Positions 6,982 to 29,628 of a stretch of 41,654 nt of DNA are shown in pieces. The DNA is from Draconibacterium orientale. GTDB taxonomy: Bacteria; Bacteroidota; Bacteroidia; Bacteroidales; UBA12170. The stretch covers positions 1-41,654 of the forward strand of contig DYSN01000022.1 in assembly GCA_020718205.1 (NCBI GenBank), read 5' to 3'. Each line of letters starts with the position of its first letter. Positions within the stretch are counted from its first letter, which is position 1. The notes beneath the pieces were generated by a model. The model ran no database searches. It was given only the letters and a program-made list of their open reading frames with translations, and was not told the origin of the DNA. A program made the position numbers and the translations under genes.

Positions 6982-8429
6982 CTTGATTTATCGGGGGGTG
7001 TTGATTTTTCCAGCTCTGAATATTTCCTGTGATTCTCTATAAACTCTTTTAACTGCTCTCCGGCGAGCCTTTTGGCTATAATACGCTTGTTTTTATCCAA
7101 CACAATGATTACTGGGGTTGAGAAAATATTGTACAAATCGTGATAATCGGAAGTGTAGGCTCTGGGGCCGTTCACATTCACAAAATTCATTTTCTTCTGC
7201 TTTATATATTTTTTCATTTCAACCATATTGGTATCTGCACAAACGGCAAACACTTCCACGTTAAGCTCCTTGGCAAAATTGTCGTAAAAATCCACAATTT
7301 TAGGGGTTTCTTTTTTGCAATGCCCACAGTTGGGATCCCAGAAAAACAATACCACATAGTCGTTTTTTAGTTCGTGTAAGCTTCGGGGTTTTTGATTGGT
7401 ATCGAGCATAATCAGATTGGGTGCAAGCTCTCCAAGGAGCGTATTCCTTCGCTTATTTGCTTCTTCCTGAATATTTTTCACCACATCGGCATTGAGCCAC
7501 GATGCTTTTCCTTTTGAAAAATAAGCGTCGGACAGGTGAACCAAAATGGCATCGTGCCCCATAATCTGGCTCTCGTCGAATTTTATTGTAAGATGCCACA
7601 AGGTGAATTTGTACATGTCGCCTGTCTCGTTCATCTTCGAAAGCAGTCTATCTATTTCATAAACAATGGAATCGGGGCTTTTGGCGACCACCTGATCAAA
7701 ATAGGTATCAACCTTTTTATGGAATAAGGGGGTTCTGACCAACCTATCGTCATTCAAATGGGTATAGTCCCAAAAATGGGCTTTATAGTATTTGTAAGGA
7801 TAGGTTGAATCGCGGCTTCCATCGGGTAAAACTGGCAATGTATCGGGGACGGGAATCTCTTTGAGTAGTGCAAAAAAGGCGGCCAAAAAGGTCTGTGGGT
7901 ATTTCTGCATGATATTTTCTTTATAGTCAATCATTTGATTGTTAATTGACTTCACTTCGCTTTTCAGAATTTCAGCGGAATCGGAATTTGCGGGCAACAC
8001 TTTGAGTCGGTCGTTCAGCGGTTTCACTTTTGCATACAAATCGCCCGAAAAATTCAGATATTGAAAGAAAAGCTCATTTTCCCGGCTATTGAAAACACGC
8101 ATATCTTTCACAAAATCGTTGCCATTAATTTCGAATTTCATTTGGCGGCTATCGGACACAAGGAACTCAAACATGCTCTTTTTTTGCTGATTTACAATAA
8201 TATACAACCCGCCTTCCGGTTTCCTGCTTTTTTGAAAAACAAATACGCCATCTCCTTTGGAATATGCTGTATCGGCTAAATAGGTTTTATCGCCATAATA
8301 ATTGGCCATGTATAATATGCTATCGGCTATGTTTTGAAATTTCAATTCAATTCGATAGGAATCCTTTTCCTGTGCCTTTAATTGCAGAAAAAATCCCGCG
8401 ATTAGAGCTATTAAAATCAGTTTTTTCAC
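6978..8429 (-). CDS. Exported TlpA-family protein with N-terminal DUF4369/DUF5106-like region
   Basis: A 483-residue exported protein: signal peptide (1-19, LKAQ), then a beta-rich DUF4369-like segment (about 22-130), a helical DUF5106-like middle (about 150-330) and a C-terminal thioredoxin domain with active site CGHC (368-371) and cis-proline STPV (Pro439). This arrangement is common in Bacteroidota periplasmic disulphide reductases. It is the first gene of a two-gene unit, overlapping the next thioredoxin gene by 4 bases. A well-formed Bacteroidota promoter lies about 70-95 bases upstream. Domain names for the first two regions are from recalled family resemblance and are less certain than the thioredoxin call. 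Confidence 0.88.
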   Translation of the reverse strand: MKKLILIALIAGFFLQLKAQEKDSYRIELKFQNIADSILYMANYYGDKTYLADTAYSKGDGVFVFQKSRKPEGGLYIIVNQQKKSMFEFLVSDSRQMKFEINGNDFVKDMRVFNSRENELFFQYLNFSGDLYAKVKPLNDRLKVLPANSDSAEILKSEVKSINNQMIDYKENIMQKYPQTFLAAFFALLKEIPVPDTLPVLPDGSRDSTYPYKYYKAHFWDYTHLNDDRLVRTPLFHKKVDTYFDQVVAKSPDSIVYEIDRLLSKMNETGDMYKFTLWHLTIKFDESQIMGHDAILVHLSDAYFSKGKASWLNADVVKNIQEEANKRRNTLLGELAPNLIMLDTNQKPRSLHELKNDYVVLFFWDPNCGHCKKETPKIVDFYDNFAKELNVEVFAVCADTNMVEMKKYIKQKKMNFVNVNGPRAYTSDYHDLYNIFSTPVIIVLDKNKRIIAKRLAGEQLKEFIENHRKYSELEKSTPPDKSR

Positions 8430-22851: not shown

Positions 22852-23688
22852 ATGGGCTTCATCAGACAATTCAGTAAAAAATTAGTCCCATTCTGGATGG
22901 GAGTCAAACTCAGAGGTGGTTATCAAAAATTTCTGGGGGTAGTTTACAAAGGCGACAAATACTATTGTCCCTACTGCAATCACAGCTTTTCGAAAATGCT
23001 TAGCGACGGTTTCGACTTGCCCGTGATTTACGAAAAACATATTGTGGGCAGTGGCAAACGAACCAACTGCACCTGCCCCCGATGTTTTAGCAAGGATCGC
23101 GACCGCCTCATCTACCTTTACCTGAAATACAAAACCAGTGTCTTTTCTACCCACCACAAAATACTTCATATTGCACCGGAAGCCTGGATGAAGGAACTCT
23201 TTCAACGAACCCCACTCATCGATTATACCTGCGGGGTTAAAGATATGAAAGATATGACCTATTACTACGACCGCATGACCTACGAAATGGATATCACCTA
23301 TCTGCAAATGCGTGATAACCTGTACGATGTGGTCATCTGCAATCACGTGCTCGAACATGTTGCCAATGACATTCAAGCCATGTCGGAGATTTATCGGGTT
23401 CTTAAACCAGGCGGCTGGGCCATTCTTCAGATTCCCATCTCACTGGTAATTCCAAAAACCTTTGAAGACTTCGATATTATTTCTAAAAGAGGACGCGAAG
23501 AGCATTTTGGTCAGTTCGATCACGTGAGAATCTATGGAAGCGACTTCTTTACACGCTTGCAATCTGTTGGTTTTCAAACCGAAAGACATCATCCGGTAAA
23601 AGACAACTGGAATATCCCCGATTTGGAAAAATATGCACTCAACAACGAAGAAGAACTTTTTATAGCTCGTAAACCATTTAAATTATGA
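22852..23688 (+). CDS. SAM-dependent methyltransferase with N-terminal zinc ribbon
   Basis: A 278-residue class I methyltransferase. The first part holds two CxxC pairs, CPYC and CTCPRC, separated by about 40 residues; they look like a four-cysteine zinc ribbon. Motif I is degenerate (LHIAPEA instead of GxGxG), as in this subgroup. Post-I acidic TYEMD, DVVICNHVLEHV (motif II), and LKPGGWAILQIPI (motif III) are normal. Because it sits between a glycosyltransferase and two kinases with 6- and -4-base spacing, the target is plausibly a glycan sugar. This is inference. Confidence 0.86.
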   Translation: MGFIRQFSKKLVPFWMGVKLRGGYQKFLGVVYKGDKYYCPYCNHSFSKMLSDGFDLPVIYEKHIVGSGKRTNCTCPRCFSKDRDRLIYLYLKYKTSVFSTHHKILHIAPEAWMKELFQRTPLIDYTCGVKDMKDMTYYYDRMTYEMDITYLQMRDNLYDVVICNHVLEHVANDIQAMSEIYRVLKPGGWAILQIPISLVIPKTFEDFDIISKRGREEHFGQFDHVRIYGSDFFTRLQSVGFQTERHHPVKDNWNIPDLEKYALNNEEELFIARKPFKL

Positions 23689-25136
23689 TGTTACTTTTTT
23701 CTAATATTACCATCATCTGGCTTCTGGCCGCGGCATTGTTTATTGTGAGCCTTGTTGCGTTTTATATGAACTACGGCAAAAAAATCCTGTCCATTTCCAA
23801 TAAAAATCTTCAGGAGCAAATGTCGAAGCTTGTTCACGAAAATAAAGATTATAAAACCCGCATCGATGCCATCGTTTTAGAAAAAACAGTCGACGTGCAT
23901 CAACAGCTCGAAGAAAGGGAAAAACTGATTATCGACCGAAAAATTGCCCTCAAAAAAGCTAAAGATGCCAACTTCCTGAAAAACGCATTTCTGGCCAATA
24001 TGAGTCACGAAATCAGAACACCACTCAACGGAATCATTGGCTTTTCCAATCTTTTACTCAACGAACTGTCGCTTCTCGAACAACAAAATCTCTACGATTA
24101 TGCTCAGGGCATCTCCGAAAGCAGCGAACGACTTCTGCTGCTTCTCGACAATCTTATCGACATAAGCCGGGTGGATGCCAACGATATAGAAGTCAATCTA
24201 CAACCAGCCAATATCAACCCATCTATTGAAAACATTTTCCAAGTATTTAAACATAAAGCCCAGGAAAAACATCTGACCGTAAACCTGGTACTCACTGAAA
24301 TACCCGATTCCATGATAGATAAATCCATCGTGGAGCGGGTAATATCGCTGATTCTCGACAATGCCATTAAATATACCGAAGCCGGTTTTATCAATATGGG
24401 ATCGTTTTACCGCGAGGAGGATCGAAAGATTTTAATCAGAATTAAGGATACAGGTATTGGAATTGACGAAAAGTTTCTCCCCGAAATTTTTTCCCCTTTT
24501 CGTCAGGAGAGCTTAGGCTATAATAAAAGCCATCAGGGTAGCGGTTTGGGTTTGCCCTTGGTTAAAAAACTGATGGAGTTGGTTCAGGGAGAAGTTCAGG
24601 TGAAATCGAAAAAGGGCGAAGGAACTGTGGTGAGTCTGTTTTTTCCGTTTATTGTCCCCGAAAACCAGAATAAACCCATGCCTGGCAAGCCTAAGGAAAA
24701 AATAGCCGGATCGGTGACCAATCTCAATCTGAACTTCGAGCCCACCATTTTGGTGGTGGAAGACGACAAAATGAACCGACTGGTTTTTTCCAAAATGCTC
24801 TCTAAAATATCTAAGCTTCATCTTTGCGTGGATGGAACTGAAGCACTGAGTTTTGTGGAGGAACATTTTAAATCGGACAGCTTCGATTTGGTTCTCATGG
24901 ACATCAACCTGCCAGCTCCCTACAGCGGAATCGATGTGATGAACGAAATGAAATCGCGCTTTCCCAAAGCAAAGACCATTCCATTTGTGGCTCAAACCGC
25001 CTATGCCATGACAGGAGATAAAGAGAAAATGCTCCAGGCAGGCTTCGACGATTATATTTCCAAACCCATTGAAAAATCAGAATTACTTCATATTATTGAA
25101 AATAATATTAAATCATCTACGAAAAATGACAACTAA
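23685..25136 (+). CDS. Hybrid sensor histidine kinase with receiver
   Basis: A 483-residue membrane-anchored kinase with one helix (about 8-28), a coiled-coil linker (about 33-100), dimerization domain with phosphoacceptor His108 in [14 protein letters not shown], ATPase domain (N-box Asn227, DTGIGI 256-261, GSGLGLPL) and C-terminal receiver (acidic pair 361-362, phosphoacceptor Asp407 in LVLMDINLP, Lys461). There is no periplasmic sensor domain, so input must come through the membrane helix or a partner. All catalytic residues look intact. The start overlaps the methyltransferase by 4 bases (ATGA) and the end overlaps the next kinase gene by 11 bases. Confidence 0.94.
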   Translation: MMLLFSNITIIWLLAAALFIVSLVAFYMNYGKKILSISNKNLQEQMSKLVHENKDYKTRIDAIVLEKTVDVHQQLEEREKLIIDRKIALKKAKDANFLKNAFLANMSHEIRTPLNGIIGFSNLLLNELSLLEQQNLYDYAQGISESSERLLLLLDNLIDISRVDANDIEVNLQPANINPSIENIFQVFKHKAQEKHLTVNLVLTEIPDSMIDKSIVERVISLILDNAIKYTEAGFINMGSFYREEDRKILIRIKDTGIGIDEKFLPEIFSPFRQESLGYNKSHQGSGLGLPLVKKLMELVQGEVQVKSKKGEGTVVSLFFPFIVPENQNKPMPGKPKEKIAGSVTNLNLNFEPTILVVEDDKMNRLVFSKMLSKISKLHLCVDGTEALSFVEEHFKSDSFDLVLMDINLPAPYSGIDVMNEMKSRFPKAKTIPFVAQTAYAMTGDKEKMLQAGFDDYISKPIEKSELLHIIENNIKSSTKNDN

Positions 25137-26358
25137 TCAACCACTGAACAACAATTCGTCATCCGACCAAATTAAGGAACTGAACAACAAGTTTTTTGAA
25201 AAGAACAGGCAACTCGAGTGCCTGCAAAACTCCCAGTCTGTTTTTCTCAAAAATCTGAGTCAGAATATCCGAATCCCGCTCAATGGAATCATTGGCATGA
25301 TCGACGTACTCAAGATGACCCAACTTTCGAAGGAACAAAGCGAGTACACCGAAATTATTAATAAATACGGCGACAATCTCATCGTTATTGTTAACGATAT
25401 TCTCGATTATTCCAAAATCATTTCGAACGATTTGGAGCTTGAAGAAAAATATTTCCAGGTCAACAGATTTATCAAAAGCATAGACCAATCGAATCGCCTA
25501 CGCATTGAAGGTAAAGGACTCATATTCAGCCTTACCATTGACGAAAACATCCCTGCTCAGTTGTTCGGCGACGAGTATCGCATCCGCCAGATTATCTCGA
25601 ATCTCATTAATAACTCAGTAAAATTTACCAAAGAAGGCCATATAACCATTTCCGCAAAACTTCTTCAACACGGAAGTGCCATTCAGAAAGGAATCGTTAA
25701 GGTGCGTTTCTCCGTTACTGACAGTGGCTATGGAATTGCAGAAACCAAACAGAATAAAATCAGAGGCGAACTCCAAAAACCAACCATCGATACCAATATT
25801 TCCACCGACGGAATCGGACTTGGGCTCAGTATTAGCCAGGCTCTACTCCGCTTGCTGTTTTCGCAGCTCGAGTTTATATCGAACGAACAAGATGGCAGTA
25901 CTTTCTGGTTCGATTTGGATATGAAATTCAAAAGCTCGCCCATGCTCATGCAGGAAGCTTCGCCCACCTACACAGGAAAAAAACTCAGCATCTTATTGGT
26001 GGAAGATAATATTCTCAACCAAAAATTTGCAGTTGCAACTCTTGTGAGACAAGGCCATCTGGTAGTTGTAGCCGAAAATGGGAAAATAGCCTACGAAAAA
26101 TTTCTGGCAGCTCCTTTCGACCTCATTCTCATGGATGTTCAAATGCCCATAATGGACGGCGTTCAGGCTACGATAAATATCCGTAGCCACGAAAAGACCC
26201 ATCAGGTTGTAAAACCTATAAAAATTGTGGCTGTTACTGCTTATGCCATGGATAGGGACCGTGAAAGATGTTTGGGCGCGGGAATGGACAAGTTCTTGGC
26301 CAAACCCTTCAAACCCGATCAACTGTTGAATATTATCAACAATCTGGATTTTGATTAG
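25126..26358 (+). CDS. Hybrid kinase-like protein lacking the phosphoacceptor histidine
   Basis: A 410-residue soluble protein built like a hybrid kinase. ATG 25126 is chosen over 25069, since the latter lies deep in the upstream gene. The H-box that should read [11 protein letters not shown] reads LSQNIRIPLNG, so His is Gln46 and Glu is Asn47; codon 25261-25263 is CAG. Most of the ATPase site persists (Asn163, Asp199 in DSGYGI, GIGLGL). The receiver is intact (acidic pair 293-294, Asp337 in ILMDVQMPIMDG, Lys393). It may act as a partner or phosphorylation target of the active kinase it overlaps by 11 bases. No membrane segment or signal peptide is seen. Confidence 0.88.
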   Translation: MTTNQPLNNNSSSDQIKELNNKFFEKNRQLECLQNSQSVFLKNLSQNIRIPLNGIIGMIDVLKMTQLSKEQSEYTEIINKYGDNLIVIVNDILDYSKIISNDLELEEKYFQVNRFIKSIDQSNRLRIEGKGLIFSLTIDENIPAQLFGDEYRIRQIISNLINNSVKFTKEGHITISAKLLQHGSAIQKGIVKVRFSVTDSGYGIAETKQNKIRGELQKPTIDTNISTDGIGLGLSISQALLRLLFSQLEFISNEQDGSTFWFDLDMKFKSSPMLMQEASPTYTGKKLSILLVEDNILNQKFAVATLVRQGHLVVVAENGKIAYEKFLAAPFDLILMDVQMPIMDGVQATINIRSHEKTHQVVKPIKIVAVTAYAMDRDRERCLGAGMDKFLAKPFKPDQLLNIINNLDFD

Positions 26359-27848: not shown

Positions 27849-28487
27849 ATGATAAATTTCTACAATATCACCGACCGTCAAAATCAGGAATACTACGAAG
27901 CCATCGAAGTATATAAAGCTGGAACAGCCGATGAACTGCAATTAAAAACTGAAATCATCGACCAGAAAATGGATTCCGGTAATGCGGTGATTATCATGGG
28001 AAAACAGAATATTATGCCGGCTTTTATGTCGCTTCTTTGGCGGCTCGAAGGTACTCCTTTTATGGTCAACGAGATTGTTTCTGTTATCCCATCGTTCACC
28101 GATGTGCCATTTGCCAAAATGTATTTCGATGTTTTAAAGCATTCAGAGTACTACGAGAAATATCATATTATTTTTGAAGTTGAAGACCCCGAATTCGGAC
28201 AGAAAGACCACAAAATCAATAAGATGAACTTCTATTTTTCGCAAGGCTTTCAGTGGATCAAAGGGGTAAAAACCATCGTTCCACATCCGTTGCACGAATC
28301 GTTCGAAAACACCTTGTTAATGGTACTCACCCAAAACCGGTTCATCGAGTTTAAACGCGAAGATTTGGAAGGTCTGATAGTAAAACTCTATAAAGACTTA
28401 TATCACACCGAAAAAGAATCATATATAGTTCAGGAAATTCTGGCGCACCTTCCCGAAAATATACAACTGACCGGGAAGTATCATTGA
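27849..28487 (+). CDS. Conserved-looking protein, GNAT-like fold suspected
   Basis: A 212-residue soluble protein without a signal peptide or membrane segment. The start YYEAIEVYKAGTADELQLK and the following VIIMGKQNIMPAFMSLLW segment resemble the first strands and helix of GNAT acyltransferases such as phage or siderophore types. The central YYEKYHIIFEVEDP would fit the fourth/fifth strands. The acetyl-CoA-binding QxxGxG/A loop is not obvious. Function is therefore not assigned; acyltransferase-like is a guess from fold pattern. It stands alone and converges on the acyltransferase gene with one intervening base. Confidence 0.7.
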   Translation: MINFYNITDRQNQEYYEAIEVYKAGTADELQLKTEIIDQKMDSGNAVIIMGKQNIMPAFMSLLWRLEGTPFMVNEIVSVIPSFTDVPFAKMYFDVLKHSEYYEKYHIIFEVEDPEFGQKDHKINKMNFYFSQGFQWIKGVKTIVPHPLHESFENTLLMVLTQNRFIEFKREDLEGLIVKLYKDLYHTEKESYIVQEILAHLPENIQLTGKYH

Positions 28488-28488
28488 A

Positions 28489-29628
28489 TCAATCTTTTAA
28501 TTCCTGCAGTTTAGCAATAACCGGGTTGGCATAAATGCCCAGAAACAGATTCTCCAATTCTTGGTTTTCGAAACCCATAAAACTATAGAGCGCCTCCAAT
28601 CTGCGGGTCATCAGCATTTCAGTTTCAATGGAGTACAGATGGCTGTACTGACCCGATTTCGTTAATTTATCGAATGCCCAGTAATTGGCCGGAAATAGCT
28701 TGAAAAGCTTATAAACCTGGTTATCAATATATTCAGCCACCTTTTGATGAATGTTATATGCATTCAGATGATTCGAATTTTCTTCTAAAAACTCGTTTAC
28801 CGGGGTTCCAAAAGCCAGATGTATTCTCCCTTTGGGCTGGGTAATTCCCATGAGAACGCTTTGAATATCTTCGCCGGGAGCTTTGGTATATCCTCCCCGA
28901 TCCAAATAGTACAGCTCCCTGATTTTGAGCAATTCGCAAGGTTCAAACTCATAGCTGATGCTGGTGGGAACTATATTAAGTCTTTTAAAGGCCTCCACCG
29001 GCGATTTCCTGTCGAAGGTAGTCAGCATTTTTAAAACCGCAGAATCCGTCATATCCAAACCATTTTTGGTGCGACCCTTGCGTTGGGCAATCCATATGGA
29101 GAGCTTTTTCTGCTCTATGGTATAAAGAATATAGTCGGACAAGCGTTTTGAGTTTTCGAGCATTTCGCGTGGCGAGCCATCTCTGTAAACAATGAACATG
29201 CGGTTAACTTTCCCAAAATCAATTATAAAATCACTAACCATTAAATTGCTCCCAAAGGTTATCTCACTGGTTTCCAATTCCAAATCAACAAGCAAAACCT
29301 GGAGTATGGCCGAATCGAGTAGAATATCTCTGTGGTTCGAAACAAATACGCATGAACCAATTTCTCTGAGCATTTGCTCGTTTTCCACGGAGAGTCCATC
29401 GCTGCTTTTTTCCAAAATCCTGTTGATGGCGCGATACATAAAGGCCTTCTGAAAATCCAGATTCCCCTTTACTTTTCTAAGTTCTTCCAAAATAAGAGCC
29501 TGCTTCTCTTTTTCAAAAAGATAATCGAGTGCCATTTGAAAATGTGGGTGAGCCATCATTCGTTGCAATGCGGCAGGAACCTCATCGTTATTATAGGGAC
29601 GAATTTTATCGAATTGATCTGTTTTCAT
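28489..29628 (-). CDS. Divergent glycerol-phosphate/lysophospholipid acyltransferase-like protein
   Basis: A 379-residue member of the PlsC-like acyltransferase superfamily, normally moving acyl chains to glycerol-phosphate lipids at the cytoplasmic membrane. The first block is FVSNHRDILLD with His99; the usual HX4D is HX5D here (Asp105), or HxD with Asp101. FGKVNRMFIVYRDG matches block II. Block III is QRKGRTKNG with Lys184 where most enzymes have Glu before Gly. The protein has long helical extensions on both sides. It is the last gene of yigZ - ligase - acyltransferase, 6 bases after the ligase gene, and converges on the gene at 27849. Confidence 0.8.
   Translation of the reverse strand: MKTDQFDKIRPYNNDEVPAALQRMMAHPHFQMALDYLFEKEKQALILEELRKVKGNLDFQKAFMYRAINRILEKSSDGLSVENEQMLREIGSCVFVSNHRDILLDSAILQVLLVDLELETSEITFGSNLMVSDFIIDFGKVNRMFIVYRDGSPREMLENSKRLSDYILYTIEQKKLSIWIAQRKGRTKNGLDMTDSAVLKMLTTFDRKSPVEAFKRLNIVPTSISYEFEPCELLKIRELYYLDRGGYTKAPGEDIQSVLMGITQPKGRIHLAFGTPVNEFLEENSNHLNAYNIHQKVAEYIDNQVYKLFKLFPANYWAFDKLTKSGQYSHLYSIETEMLMTRRLEALYSFMGFENQELENLFLGIYANPVIAKLQELKD

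Follow-up and report, generated by a model that had tools for sequence, protein, structure and literature searches.

Loss of the phospho-acceptor histidine from either member of an adjacent hybrid histidine kinase pair in a Bacteroidota order

Why would a hybrid histidine kinase that has lost its phospho-acceptor histidine be kept directly behind a complete kinase, and what might the two do together? The question is raised by two genes, P1 and P2 (Table 1), within a 41,654-nucleotide stretch of Draconibacterium orientale DNA (contig DYSN01000022.1), hereafter the window. Pfam places HisKA, HATPase_c and Response_reg in that order in both proteins, all above cut-offs. P1 has a hydrophobic anchor at its N-terminus and complete kinase motifs. 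A hybrid histidine kinase is recognized by the phospho-acceptor histidine of its H-box, and this P1 possesses (His108, in MSHEIRTP), whereas in P2 Gln46 stands in its place, the next codon (AAT) encodes Asn47 rather than glutamate, and the phosphatase threonine of HExxT is lost as well, with Ile50 at that position. The translated reading frames thus bear out a preliminary description of this DNA, in which a kinase with a canonical His108 was said to overlap a protein carrying glutamine for histidine and asparagine for glutamate. The same description held that ATP-site and receiver residues persist in P2; this is correct for the receiver, where Asp337, the receiver aspartate, and every other such residue are intact, and holds in part for the ATP site, where the N-box, G1 and G2 are retained and the F-box/ATP lid is missing (NKIRGELQKPT where IFxxFxQ is expected). 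An AlphaFold2 model of P2 (mean pLDDT 83.6) keeps the DHp hairpin, the ATPase fold and the receiver; within the lid region, confidence is low for residues 223-228. The P1 model was based on 10 sequences only and decided nothing further. In fold, the predicted P2 core is nearest to ShkA, GacS, RetS and the RetS-GacS co-complex, and DivL is also near.

Table 1. Features of the P1/P2 locus, in window coordinates.
Feature	Position (strand)	Details
c1 glycosyltransferase family 2, conserved neighbour upstream of P1	21652..22845 (+)	Pfam and gene order
c0 SAM methyltransferase, conserved neighbour upstream of P1	22852..23688 (+)	Pfam and gene order
P1 hybrid histidine kinase	23685..25136 (+)	483 aa; HisKA His108, HATPase_c, receiver
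11-nt overlap, P1 stop / P2 start	25126..25136 (+)	
P2 soluble hybrid pseudokinase	25126..26358 (+)	410 aa; coiled coil, HisKA Gln46, degenerate CA domain, intact receiver
Gln46 codon CAG, phospho-acceptor position of P2	25261..25263 (+)	

The most trivial explanation would be that P2 is a decaying pseudogene or that Gln46 is a sequencing error, and the absence of P2 from one congener (L154) could be taken to favour it. However, the assemblies of the window and of six other genomes of its genus, whose P2 proteins are 47-49% identical to that of the window, all agree: every one of the six orthologues carries LSQNIRIP, none has histidine, and the glutamine codon alternates between CAA and CAG. 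Loss of the acceptor histidine is therefore conserved among orthologues in 7/7 members of the genus, as one would expect of a histidine pseudokinase. About a third of the columns are invariant among the seven proteins, Gln46 and Asn47 included, and NLSQNIRIP is the longest invariant run. The dN/dS values are at most about 0.35 for every domain (DHp, ATPase and receiver), ratios that are rough because dS is often saturated, and within the window's genus dN of the P2 DHp domain is lower than that of the P1 DHp domain. Because histidine is found in all of the approximately 90 hybrid-kinase cores outside the P1/P2 family that the same searches retrieved, and glutamine is fixed in the seven P2 proteins of the genus, Gln46 is not there by chance. 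Given the agreement of assemblies, the synonymous codons and the low dN/dS, we reject decay or error, which is scarcely credible. The sequences support the view that P2 is a selected pseudokinase, and the earlier picture of a pseudokinase adjoining a complete kinase stands, with a conserved non-histidine residue and an invariant receiver.

A P1 profile search of 393 genomes of the order returned matches in 33, and a class-wide sample of 395 genomes held no P1 relative at E <= 1e-150 besides the window. Where flanks were examined, P2 was found directly downstream of P1 in 43 genomes, which belong to one Bacteroidota order and to many of its families, and the H-box was scored in 42 of these pairs, the excluded one having a truncated P1. 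Both kinases are intact in 15 of the 42. Thirteen others combine a P1 histidine with a degenerate P2; here the P2 histidine is replaced in 10 (by glutamine in three, namely the window and two congeners, by tyrosine in four, asparagine in one and glutamate in two) and kept in three (L136, L148 and L150), in which the P2 glutamate is lost and the ATPase part is degenerate. The reverse state, serine in P1 with a complete P2, occurs in 11 pairs from two genera of one family, and in three congeners of the window (L132, L164 and L165) arginine in P1 is paired with glutamine in P2, neither protein having the histidine. When the 24 pairs short of a histidine are considered together, the other partner is complete in 21, and 39 of the 42 scorable pairs have a complete kinase in one partner or in both. 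The substituted residues are held across synonymous codons (CAA/CAG for glutamine, AGA/CGC for arginine, TCN for serine). The acidic pair, phosphorylated aspartate, threonine or serine, and lysine of the receiver are intact in 56/56 P1 and 45/45 P2 rows, in which some genomes are counted twice. That either partner, or in a few species both, could lose the histidine while the receivers stay suggests that the two proteins operate as one signalling unit. In the two genera with serine in P1, the P1 ATPase part has drifted separately, reading LLAPFKS in one and GTRLGLP in the other, beside a complete P2; the G2 box of L180-L184, from the genus with GTRLGLP, reads GTRLGLP or GSRLGLP, not GxGLGLP. 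An apparent P1-P2 fusion (G787, a 920-aa open frame) was rejected, as an in-frame TGA lies between the two genes on what is the same contig as that of L027.

Trees of P1 place histidine loss on at least four branches, among them those of an extra P1 copy and of an unpaired relative. The change from histidine to serine arises twice in the best tree, with a single origin marginally disfavoured (p-AU 0.067). In the P2 tree, the degenerate proteins cluster on long branches that meet, and one common origin for these proteins, when tested on the P1 tree, is not rejected (p-AU 0.316); the count of independent P2 degenerations is accordingly uncertain. Since L136, L148 and L150 belong to the degenerate group and keep their histidine, loss of the glutamate and of ATPase motifs may have preceded a later, repeated replacement of the histidine. 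The extra P1 copy lies upstream of an intact P1-P2 pair (L139, 5135-7828; L144, 1946-4639) and carries SQEIRTP, glutamine having replaced histidine; the unpaired gene (L161, 6099-8675) is a distant relative of P1, also with SQEIRTP for SHEIRTP.

We give slightly better than an even chance to the reading that P1 and P2 form one heteromeric signalling unit with two indispensable receivers, to which either protein can contribute the kinase activity. The two would most likely be joined via their DHp helices. In the window, P1, with His108 and a complete ATP domain, would supply the phosphoryl group, and P2, as a dimer partner that cannot be phosphorylated at Gln46, would accept phosphate from P1 His108 on Asp337; in the sister lineages with serine in P1 and a complete P2, the roles would be swapped, and in either arrangement the unit would control the glycan operon. 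Dimerization, the direction of phosphotransfer and operon control are what we infer from the observed residue states, conservation, low dN/dS, adjacency and operon. The preliminary description had proposed a transfer of phosphate from the active kinase to its dead partner's receiver, which fits the window. Such transfer is not the general rule, because 11 genomes have the reverse arrangement, with P1 dead and P2 intact, and three congeners have neither histidine. The existence of a close relative, L154, that keeps P1 and the operon without P2 is counter-evidence to such a unit. In this genome (G002, of the window's genus), no P2 is found after position 7490, and the aspartokinase-like gene lies immediately downstream of P1.

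In the three congeners without either histidine, phosphorylation of histidine within the pair cannot be obligatory, and the unit there must be charged from outside, act independently of phosphorylation, or serve as a phosphatase. One could envision more generally that one or more other kinases load both receivers and that the P1 and P2 cores serve mainly as a dimerization scaffold or a phosphatase. This would account for the arginine-glutamine lineage, in which neither protein has an acceptor although dN/dS is low and P1 keeps its ATP domain intact and its phosphatase threonine; in the window genome, moreover, related stretches of kinase and receiver number in the dozens. However, with a complete kinase in all but three of the scorable pairs, we consider this account unlikely. 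A tentative extension of the heteromeric unit, possible though not probable, is an obligate two-receiver pair in which the catalytic role shifts between partners and the arginine-glutamine sublineage functions without an acceptor histidine, through a nucleotide switch in the ATP domain or as a receiver phosphatase. In L132, L164, L165, L135 and L163, DHp helix 2 of P1 has histidine for asparagine (GHIxDLSR / EHIIDLSR); it is a possible alternative acceptor, and is also found in congeners with the normal histidine.

Amide side chains dephosphorylate receivers in CheZ and in DxxxQ kinases. P2 might by analogy be a phosphatase, the amide of Gln46, with Asn47, dephosphorylating a docked receiver. 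The invariance of both residues in the genus agrees with this, but where P2 is similarly degenerate in other lineages, this position holds tyrosine, asparagine, glutamate or histidine, which makes such a role very improbable. Alternatively, the dead P2 core could sense phosphorylation of a receiver, be it that of P2 itself or of P1, and thereby toggle P1 between kinase and phosphatase, transfer from P1 to P2 being beside the point. In a comparable way, DivL of Caulobacter, which has tyrosine at the histidine site, binds ATP weakly and has neither kinase nor phosphatase activity, controls the true hybrid kinase CckA, through binding of DivK~P (PMC4211667). The joint loss of histidine, glutamate and threonine in P2, and the tyrosine of several P2 proteins, as in DivL, are in keeping with this allosteric account. 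However, DivL-family proteins have PAS domains and no receiver, whereas P2 has no PAS match and always keeps a complete receiver of its own; moreover, P2 is an intact kinase in 11 genomes, whereas in DivL/CckA only one partner is ever the dead one. We thus regard allostery of this kind as doubtful, though it deserves serious attention.

Kinase heteromers and pseudokinases are already known from FasB/FasC, RetS/GacS, DivL/CckA, HrrS/ChrS and RcsC/RcsD; the Fas kinases are not known to carry receivers, and the retS and gacS genes are unlinked. FasB and FasC of group A Streptococcus resemble P1 and P2 in being neighbouring sensor kinases with a reported heterodimer and one proposed pseudokinase (PMC12675982). 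Unlike P2, FasC retains its histidine, and its kinase domain is dispensable; reciprocal loss is not described in the parts of that report consulted. RetS and GacS of Pseudomonas are hybrid kinases that heterodimerize (PMC12189002), as proposed here for P1 and P2, and both rank with the solved structures closest in fold to P2; in contrast, RetS inhibits GacS, each also homodimerizes, and they are not an operon pair with one member dead and one alive. RcsC/RcsD of Enterobacteria likewise joins a hybrid kinase to a partner with a pseudo-histidine-kinase domain, in capsule control (PMC3762810), but RcsD carries an HPt domain whereas P2 ends in a receiver; by Pfam there is no HPt in P1 or P2, and the two HPt matches of the window genome are both on other contigs. 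The ChrS pseudokinase of Corynebacterium is, like P2, a functional dead kinase beside a live paralogue, HrrS, and the native forms heterodimerize (PMC9491836); it differs in being a laboratory-evolved frameshift, neither protein has a receiver, and truncated ChrS showed no two-hybrid heterodimer. In the open-access literature we found no precedent for hybrid kinases paired in an operon such that either one can be dead, and for such pairs in Bacteroidota there was no match in a search that covered open-access papers.

A single gene pair thus offers a natural series (kinase-kinase, kinase-pseudokinase, pseudokinase-kinase and pseudokinase-pseudokinase) that can test how partnered kinases give rise to pseudokinases, which functions of the kinase core outlast loss of the histidine, and whether the conserved output of hybrid kinases can lie in their receivers. 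It is also a candidate regulator of a surface-glycan operon common to many uncultured Bacteroidota. Two further reading frames of the window, 27849-28487 (212 aa) and 28489-29628 (379 aa), have no Pfam match. At most loci, a hexapeptide acyltransferase gene, in some cases with an FkbM methyltransferase gene after it, precedes genes for the family-2 glycosyltransferase, beta-helix protein, SAM methyltransferase, P1 and P2 in that order, and because of this gene order P1 and P2 look like the regulatory end of such an operon. The beta-helix protein of the usual locus is secreted and bears a type IX sorting tail; in the window's genus, its gene is missing from the operon.
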